Shown piece after piece: positions 15,050-16,534 of a stretch of DNA of 64,000 nt (its first letter is position 1; each line of letters starts with the position of its first letter). The position numbers were made by a program, and so were the translations under genes. The stretch spans positions 930,001 through 994,000 of the forward strand of contig KV748192.1 of the NCBI GenBank assembly GCA_001692895.1, given 5' to 3'. A model generated the notes under the pieces. The model was not told the DNA's origin. It searched no databases and saw only the letters and a list, made by a program, of their open reading frames with translations. This stretch comes from Cenococcum geophilum 1.58. Lineage: Eukaryota; Ascomycota; Dothideomycetes; Gloniales; Gloniaceae.

Positions 15050-15880
15050 CTGTAACCTACTCGAGTAGTCGTTATTGGTAAGTCACCCTATGTGACTAAT
15101 AAAAATAATTAACTCCTCTTTTATAGGTTGTCTTCTAATAGTCCTTAATATCCGATTCCAGTAATAGCCCTATATAAATTATTACTGCCAAGTATGTAAG
15201 AAACTCCCTTATAGTAGTTAGCTTCTATTTATAAGGACTTTAAACTTTCTCCTTTTATCCTTATATTCTTAGTAGGGATAAAGCTTTATATACTCATTTA
15301 TATAAACTGCTAGCTCTTTAAGTAAATTATCTGTCTATATAAGCTTAAATAAGGCAAGAGGATCGGTAGGATCTATATAAGGTGGTAGATCTAAAGCGCC
15401 ATTGGTAAGAGAAAGATTAATAGGTAAGGGATTAAATTCTAGCAGTAGCTAGGGCTCTAGCGGTGGAATTTTAGCCCGCTTGTTCTTTAAAATAATATAT
15501 TTATTAGGTTGCACAAGATCTATATTATTAGAAGTACGTTTACGACCTATTATAGTAATATAATTAAGGTAGGAAGCTATATAGTTTCTATAGTGGAGAT
15601 ATTTGTTAATGTTTTGGTGTTCGCGCACGGACTACATTTTTATTGCGCCTTGACTACGTATGGGATACTAGTCGCGGCGGTGTTTTGCAGACTAATATGA
15701 TCTATACATAGTACTATTAAGTCAAGAAAGGGTAGAAAAGACTTGTACATAGCTATATAATTTTACGGAGTTACTATGCTACGTTTAGTAGATAGAATAG
15801 GAGGTGTGAGTGGGTAGGCGGGAGGAAAGAAATAATAAAAGCCGGCACGCTTCTTACATTTGTATATAAAATATCTTTAA
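15050..15880 (-). pseudogene. piggyBac-like transposase remnant (DDE_Tnp_1_7), N-terminal half
   Basis: Minus-strand frames give the start of the piggyBac transposase domain. Between about 15470 and 15270 one reads DLPPYIDPTDPLALFKLI followed by LLKELAVYINEY, the usual 'DPxxLFxLFxTDxLLxxLxxxTNxYA' lead-in. Between about 15180 and 15060, in another frame, one reads IYIGLLLESDIKDY and then KTTYKRGVNYFY, the conserved 'IYMGLxxxxxIxDYW' block. So there is at least one frameshift plus several TAA/TAG/TGA stops of the RIP type. The catalytic Asp residues are missing because copia-1 cuts the gene at 15049. Upstream (about 15500-15880) I see only weakly protein-like sequence and no clear terminal repeat; a TTAA occurs near 15880. 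A plain DNA transposon fossil, older than copia-1. Confidence 0.78.
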
Positions 15881-15901
15881 TTCAAAAAGAGAAGTACTAG
15901 A

Positions 15902-16024
15902 GTATCAGTGGTTTAGTGGTAAAATGTAAGTTACCAATCACTTTATAGTTACTTAAAGTGGAAAGTTAATTTGATAGCCATCGTTGCCATCGATGGGCCC
16001 CGCCTTCGATTCGCGGCTGATGCA
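15902..16024 (+). tRNA. tRNA-Gly(GCC) with a 52-bp insertion; possibly a pseudogene
   Basis: All cloverleaf parts of a eukaryotic tRNA-Gly are present. Acceptor strands are 15902-15908 (GTATCAG) and 16017-16023 (CTGATGC), with one T-G pair. The D arm is TGGTTTAGTGGTAAAAT (15909-15925). The anticodon stem-loop CATCG/TTGCCAT/CGATG (15979-15995) has anticodon GCC at 15986-15988. The T arm (16000-16016) has loop TTCGATT but a C-C mismatch at its last stem pair, which also spoils the B box. The discriminator is A16024 and eight Ts follow. Between D arm and anticodon stem sits 52 bp of foreign sequence. No intron is seen at the standard 37/38 site. The gene could be functional only if the insertion is removed or tolerated. 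Confidence 0.85.
15926..15977 (+). other. 52-bp GT...AG insertion inside tRNA-Gly
   Basis: Starts GTAAGT and ends GATAG, lying between tRNA positions 25 and 26. It contains a perfect 7-bp inverted repeat, CACTTTA (15939-15945) and TAAAGTG (15954-15960), with an 8-nt loop. Removing it restores a continuous, standard-length tRNA-Gly. It could be an odd intron, a small structured insertion, or part of a tRNA-derived element. Confidence 0.7.
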
Positions 16025-16027
16025 AAA

Positions 16028-16035
16028 TTTTTTTT
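16028..16035 (+). terminator. Pol III terminator after tRNA-Gly
   Basis: A run of eight Ts begins 4 nt after the tRNA 3' end, the normal RNA polymerase III stop signal. Confidence 0.75.
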
Positions 16036-16534
16036 GATCAGGTCTTCAAAGTCGGGCCAAAGTTTTAAAAGGGAAAAGTGGATCTACTCGATCACGAAAT
16101 GGACGGCGAGGACGAAGACTACAGTTCTTTAGAACTGGCTTAAGGGAGCTCTAGCCGTGCATTGCCAGAGCAGATACAGGTCTCTGGGCGCTTGGTAAGA
16201 TTATTTAGAAGACTCCTATCGCCGATTATAAACTTACCTCTAACGGAAAATATATATGCCCACCTTGCGGAAGGCTACAGATTTATTCGGGTGGGTAAGA
16301 TAAAATTAACGATAAAAGTAGACGAGTTTAGCTAAGCAAAAAGTGCAGAATTATAAGAAGTATGTGTTGAGGGAGAGGCAGCACACATAGCTAAACTAGG
16401 CGAGAATTTACCAGTATATTTAGATCTACTAATCGCGGAGTATAAGCGGTTCTGGGCATATCGTCTTAAAATTATAATTTAGGATCGTAAGTGTAAGAGA
16501 ATAGCGAAAGGCAGACCGCCTCTTAGGAGGTATA
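16036..16534 (+). other. Weakly RIPped stretch with a degraded, unidentified reading frame
   Basis: This 500-bp stretch between the tRNA and gypsy B has more balanced base composition and keeps many CpA sites. From an ATG at 16099 one plus-strand frame reads MDGEDEDYSSLELA, then continues with only a few TAA/TAG codons to the edge of gypsy B, ending in a basic segment (KGRPPLRRY). In the pre-insertion locus it would continue at 36951. Another frame near 16220-16290 contains a Cys-x2-Cys string (YICPPCGRLQ). I do not recognise it. It may be a host gene relic or another transposon piece. Confidence 0.3.

Follow-up and report, generated by a model that had tools for sequence, protein, structure and literature searches.

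Putative minimal spliceosomal introns in nuclear tRNA genes of Cenococcum geophilum

Overview

A transfer RNA (tRNA) gene of the fungus Cenococcum geophilum 1.58, tRNA-Gly(GCC), is interrupted by 52 bp, very probably a minimal spliceosomal (GT-AG) intron that belongs to a genome-wide set in tRNA genes. The gene lies on the forward strand of a 64,000-nt stretch (contig KV748192.1, positions 930,001 to 994,000, assembly GCA_001692895.1), which is called the window here and whose numbering is used throughout. In the genome assembly (177.19 Mb, 162 contigs) we found 16 GT-AG inserts in 13 tRNA genes, which serve eight amino acids and are spread over 11 contigs. All of the inserts are 47-60 nt long. 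As read from the spliced forms, they sit in the D arm, the anticodon stem, the variable region or the T loop, and none of the 16 is at 37/38; an ordinary intron of 7-22 nt occupies that site in 11 of the 13 genes. As inserts of the same kind recur throughout the genome, the one in the window is unlikely to be damage. Judged from sequence, these genes suggest that the spliceosome takes part in tRNA production, against the rule given in textbooks.

The interrupted tRNA-Gly(GCC) gene

By direct reading, the gene occupies 15902-16024. Exon 1 (tRNA positions 1-25; 15902-15925) is followed by the 52-nt insert at 25/26 (15926-15977) and by exon 2 (positions 26-73; 15978-16024), which has the anticodon GCC at 15986-15988. 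The insert has the form GTAAGT...TTAAT...GATAG. Its first six bases (15926-15931) resemble a 5′ splice site and its final TAG (15975-15977) a 3′ splice site. A motif scan found TTAAT at 15966-15970, a branch-point-like YTRAY motif whose second A is 8 nt before the intron end; this weaker form is the only such motif in the window intron. In the fold of the uncut gene a 7-bp hairpin lies within the intron (15939-15960). The A-box region (positions 8-19; 15909-15919) is intact, and the B-box region (positions 52-62) is at 16003-16013. A TATA-like word, TATATAAAA, stands 39 bases 5′ of the first tRNA base (15863-15871). The tRNA is followed by AAA and then by a run of eight T at 16028-16035, which resembles a terminator of RNA polymerase III (Pol III).

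ARAGORN reported no tRNA in the window, the uncut stretch included. When the 52 bp were removed, it called a 71-nt tRNA-Gly(gcc) with the two exons given above. A search of 15700-16250 against Rfam gave no family at its gathering score, the one match having 18 bits against a cut-off of 90. An earlier note, made from the letters of the window, had described a tRNA-Gly(GCC) split by 52 bp at 25/26, with a normal length after their removal, a hairpin of 7 bp inside the insert and a T8 terminator. Direct reading, the ARAGORN call, the fold and the uninterrupted paralogues described below all agree with that description.

Filled and empty sites

A search with the joined tRNA revealed two paralogues, L018 and L019, which both read GTGGTTTAGTGGTAAAATCCATCGTTGC and are uninterrupted at the insert site. 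The window has this sequence too, with the 52 bp placed between AAAAT and CCATCG. As neither border can slide, the insert is GTAAGT...GATAG to the base, and the site shows no target duplication. The two copies are themselves odd. Both L018:1495-1570 and L019:1495-1570 are Gly-like. Their anticodon loop has 14 nt and offers no GCC at 37/38, and their T loop is just 5 nt long (TTATT, without CG). The two share 61 of 62 bases outside the 14-nt loop, and their 5′ flanks are unrelated. They may be copied pseudogenes or an odd working tRNA.

Other pairs of genes allow similar comparisons. For Asp(GTC), L081 has an intron at 45/46 and L012 has none there, and their mature forms are equal in 72 of 72 bases; repeated bases allow the border to slide, GT-AG being one of the solutions. 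For initiator Met, L102 has an intron and L002 does not; between their mature forms there are 8 differences in 72 bases. The two Glu(CTC) genes, L051 and L069, have identical 72-nt exons and a common intron site at 26/27, and both introns run GT...TAG. Similarity is 58% between the two introns (mean of shuffled sequences 50%, 95% limit 56%) and 53% between the 5′ flanks (shuffled 52%). Drifted introns and flanks next to conserved exons and GT...TAG ends would be expected under selection on exons and splice sites.

The genome-wide set

Loci were gathered by pattern searches, by a search with the tRNA model RF00005 (63 of 10103 candidates scored) and by reading; the resulting tRNA catalogue is not exhaustive, and the insert positions and isotypes come from our reading of the spliced forms. 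Single inserts were found in Gly(GCC) of the window (25/26), Val(CAC) L048 (24/25), Arg(TCT) L015 (15/16), Glu(CTC) L051 and L069 (both 26/27), Arg(CCG) L076 (25/26), Asp(GTC) L081 (45/46), initiator Met L102 (26/27) and a second Gly(GCC) gene, L078 (20/21). In L078 the insert is 47 nt long and accompanied by an 8-nt intron at 37/38, its D arm is the same as that of the window copy, and its pairing is complete. Another single insert, at 57/58 of Ala(TGC) L029, falls within the B box; this gene has the anticodon TGC, a 37/38 intron and the pair G3:U70, which we take to be the mark of alanine. Two inserts each were found in Arg(ACG) L094 (19/20 and 46/47), Glu(TTC) L071 (16/18 and 26/27, the exon between them being 10 nt long) and Pro(AGG) L024 (30/31 and 43/44). 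The earlier note had pointed to the likeness of its single insert to a minimal fungal spliceosomal intron, and the same kind of insert in 12 more tRNA genes strengthens this comparison.

We estimated the share of interrupted genes from two B-box searches, which miss tRNAs whose B box is split by an intron or of another form, or which have no T-run nearby. They returned 25 places: 18 tRNA genes, four copies of a tRNA-like repeat and three other sequences. Nine of the 18 genes have GT-AG introns (L051, L069, L071, L076, L078, L081, L048, L015 and L094) and eight have none (L005-L010, L012 and L064). The remaining one, the Leu-CAA-like L054, is probably a tenth gene with GT-AG introns, two of them. 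In this survey Glu(CTC), Glu(TTC), Arg(ACG) and Arg(CCG) were seen as interrupted copies only. For a genome of 177 Mb, 18 genes seem a low number, and most anticodons were seen in a single copy, though the searches are not exhaustive.

Splice signals and cloverleaf tests

All 16 inserts, as curated, begin with GT and end with AG, as expected of U2-type spliceosomal introns. The motif CTRAY occurs 5-35 nt from the 3′ end in ten of them (shuffled mean 2.4), and YTRAY in 14 (shuffled mean 5.2); none of 2000 shuffles reached either count. The intron of L102 has TACTAAC. As a small reference set we used five mRNA introns of 53-139 nt, four from an actin gene and one from a gene that we read as DnaJ-like; all five have GT...CTRAY...AG. 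The inserts (47-60 nt) are thus like these mRNA introns in length and share their motifs.

We also placed the inserts by structure only. Every segment whose removal leaves 70-73 nt was taken out in turn, and the product was scored by pairing and invariant bases alone. The best-scoring set includes a GT-AG cut for 15 of the 16 inserts, the window one among them, compared with 0.3 expected when the insert letters are shuffled (P ~1e-28, an optimistic value, as the inserts were curated by eye and the 37/38 and second introns had been taken out beforehand by curation). A chance origin of the inserts is rejected by these shuffle tests. A similar scan of segments with ARAGORN was too permissive: some GT-AG cut came first in one of ten genes and within the top 12 in all ten, and several genes received other isotypes at higher scores. 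The cloverleaf count was used instead for this reason.

On a scale of 31 pairs and invariant bases, the spliced form of the window gene has 29 and those of the other genes have 30 or 31 (L029 was scored with its 3′ end extended by one genomic base). In an alignment of 12 distinct spliced tRNAs, from which L069 was left out as its spliced form is equal to that of L051, the acceptor stem is 100% paired and the T stem 98.3%, with changes on both sides. The D stem and the anticodon stem are paired in 56.5% and 63.3% of cells, partly because the D loops vary in length and shift the columns out of register; the per-gene counts are free of this fault.

Transcription signals

A run of at least four T lies within 30 nt of the 3′ end in the window gene and in all of the 12 other interrupted genes. 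The run was part of the search pattern for seven of the 13 genes, and was not for the other six (window, L015, L024, L029, L048 and L102). TATA-like words at -55 to -20 were found in 12 of 24 other tRNA or tRNA-like genes, compared with 69 of 443 background windows.

State of the window copy

The earlier note had also reported a T-stem mismatch, and this is real. Position 53 (16004) is C instead of G and stands unpaired opposite C61, the sole unpaired cell among the 60 T-stem cells of the 12 aligned tRNAs; the change alters the B box too. Judged by the features of a functional tRNA-Gly, G53 and its pair with C61 are missing and the remainder is in place. We consider it a serious possibility, a little short of even, that the intron class is real while the window copy is failing or dead and L078 supplies tRNA-Gly(GCC). 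The change at C53 and the existence of L078, a fully paired second Gly(GCC) gene with its own GT-AG intron in the D loop, argue for this. However, the rest of the cloverleaf, the splice signals, the TATA-like word and the terminator are in place in the window copy, and the ARAGORN score of its joined form (110.8) is close to that of L012 (111.0). In any case, a failing window copy would not touch the reading of its intron.

Alternative explanations

The earlier note had left three options: a non-canonical intron, a small structured insertion or a dead tRNA. The 16 GT-AG inserts in 13 genes, mostly with branch-point-like motifs, favour the first, and the pseudogene argument from C53 bears on the window copy only. 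It is improbable that the interrupted genes in general are pseudogenes broken by small insertions while intact genes elsewhere do the work. Besides C53, degenerate tRNA-like copies do exist (L018, L019, L047 and L014), and intact genes might lie beyond our catalogue, in which only 63 of the 10103 RF00005 candidates were scored. Against this, the spliced forms keep 29-31 of the 31 pairs and invariant bases, the Glu(CTC) pair retains identical exons despite introns and flanks near the shuffled level, the inserts all run GT...AG yet are unlike one another, and four anticodons appeared in the B-box survey as interrupted copies only. A mobile element, such as a miniature inverted-repeat transposable element (MITE), that left a footprint is scarcely credible. 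The inserts are short and the window one has a hairpin, as might be expected of such an element. But the 211-base stretch with the window insert matched only itself in a genome-wide search (which skips very common words), no insert matched another insert or any other place at E 0.01 among the examined loci, and the unshiftable borders in the window show no target duplication. A mobile insert was thus rejected, and with it the mobile repeat that the earlier note had raised. Self-splicing group I or II introns, whose ribozyme core runs to hundreds of bases, were also rejected, as 47-60 nt is too short and no Rfam family reached its gathering score around the window gene.

A relaxed tRNA splicing endonuclease could instead cut bulge-helix-bulge (BHB) structures at odd positions, as in Cyanidioschyzon merolae and archaea. 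This is also unlikely, if marginally less so than general pseudogenes. With a fixed geometry of 3-nt bulges and a 4-bp central helix, the helix was found in 0/16 inserts. It was also found in 0/11 of the 37/38 introns, which are the expected substrates of the endonuclease; the central-helix criterion therefore does not discriminate, and the geometry test is weak. The 3-bp outer helix is more informative, being complete in 3/16 inserts and 10/11 of the 37/38 introns. Moreover, the GT-AG ends of all 16 inserts and the branch-like motifs of most of them are not needed by BHB introns, and none of the 11 37/38 introns, as placed, runs GT...AG. The two classes differ in position, length and ends.

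Several observations weigh against a spliceosomal origin. The 16 inserts were chosen by eye with GT-AG known beforehand, and the loci L054, L028 and L101 were left out. The branch motif is weak or missing in two of the 16. Runs of at least four T are not significantly depleted in the introns (2 found, 4.2 expected; 355 of 2000 shuffles were as low). For the first insert of L094 the GT-AG cut scores 30, compared with 31 for a cut without GT-AG. At position 26 of L102, an AG...CA cut matches the intronless L002 and the GT-AG cut does not, which is a small point. Spliceosomes are generally viewed as coupled to RNA polymerase II (Pol II), and transcription needs explaining where the A or B boxes are split.

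Loci outside the counts

The three loci left out above, L054, L028 and L101, are interrupted tRNA loci, all on the reverse strand, and L028 has a stretch of the form GTATGA...ACTAAC...AAG. L047, L014, L018, L019 and L098-L100 were left out of the counts as degenerate, and L026, L027, L030, L053, L067, L072 and L082 as tRNA-like repeats. The latter form two families, L053/L067/L072/L082 and L026/L027/L030, with stretches like A and B boxes, and are possibly short interspersed nuclear elements (SINEs). L098, L099 and L100 resemble one another as degenerate tRNA-like copies (GGGTTGGCGCAATGGTAGCGCG...), their downstream sequences are related, and they are perhaps another tRNA-derived repeat. L004 and L013, mitochondrial-looking loci from the RF00005 search, were left out of all counts. 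Further weak pattern matches were left out as well; those examined were 30 of the 105 matches of one search and 14 stretches from two others.

Proposed pathway and its consequences

We favour minimal spliceosomal introns. The sequence itself shows the exact insertion, the GT-AG ends, the branch-point-like motifs, the lengths of 47-60 nt, the positions other than 37/38, the empty sites in paralogues and the T-run terminators, and the following course of transcription and splicing is proposed. Pol III would transcribe the interrupted gene by means of its internal boxes, sometimes split, and perhaps of an upstream TATA. Before the tRNA folds, the spliceosome would excise the GT-AG intron in lariat form; a 37/38 intron, where present, would be removed by the tRNA endonuclease and ligase, and the joined RNA would fold as an ordinary tRNA. 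In the window copy the intron signals are intact, but C53 may make the tRNA or its B box less effective.

It seems likely, though less certain than the nature of the window insert, that about half of the nuclear tRNA genes would yield no tRNA without the spliceosome. Two unrelated machines would cut single precursors, the spliceosome acting on GT-AG introns and the tRNA endonuclease on those at 37/38. The fungus would depend on pre-mRNA splicing factors for its tRNAs for Glu, Arg, Asp, Gly, Pro, Val, Ala and initiator Met, and Pol III would cope with A and B boxes that are split. Several questions become testable in this system: whether the spliceosome can act routinely on Pol III transcripts and how it copes with exons of only 10-25 nt, what TFIIIC does at promoter boxes that are split, whether splicing and tRNA supply are linked, and how introns enter such small genes, of which filled and empty copies coexist here. 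On the practical side, tRNA finders can miss such genes, as ARAGORN did in the window.

Comparison with known systems

Spliceosomal introns in a Pol III transcript are known from some yeasts, whose U6 snRNA genes have mRNA-type introns. U6, however, belongs to the spliceosome itself, and in the present genome the one U6 match covers the model without a break. Canonical 37/38 introns likewise lie in nuclear tRNA genes, including most of those described here, but the inserts lie elsewhere, are longer (47-60 compared with 7-22 nt) and have splice-site and branch-like motifs.

In PMC11782384, nuclear tRNA introns are counted as archaeal-type, and all four intron classes are said, in general terms, to be known from all major RNA types. 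Among the open-access titles and abstracts listed by our searches, we found no report of spliceosomal introns in nuclear tRNA genes. The odd-position BHB introns of C. merolae described in PMC4090602, and those of archaea, are similar in their unusual tRNA positions and in occurring several per gene. They are recognised by the BHB structure, whereas here no strict BHB fits (in what is a weak test) and GT-AG signals are present.

The nearest precedent that we found is in lichen fungi. PMC8527467 describes ectopic spliceosomal introns in their nuclear ribosomal DNA (rDNA), one of which, 57 bp long and with yeast-like splice signals, was removed from RNA polymerase I (Pol I) transcripts in yeast. 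Both there and here, short spliceosomal introns, putative in our case, lie in the gene of a structural RNA not made by Pol II. Theirs are in Pol I rRNA, whereas ours are in tRNA genes of several isotypes, with exons down to 10 nt. The inserts would be a variant of the ectopic spliceosomal introns of structural RNA genes and not categorically new, because the parts are known separately and splicing is what we infer.
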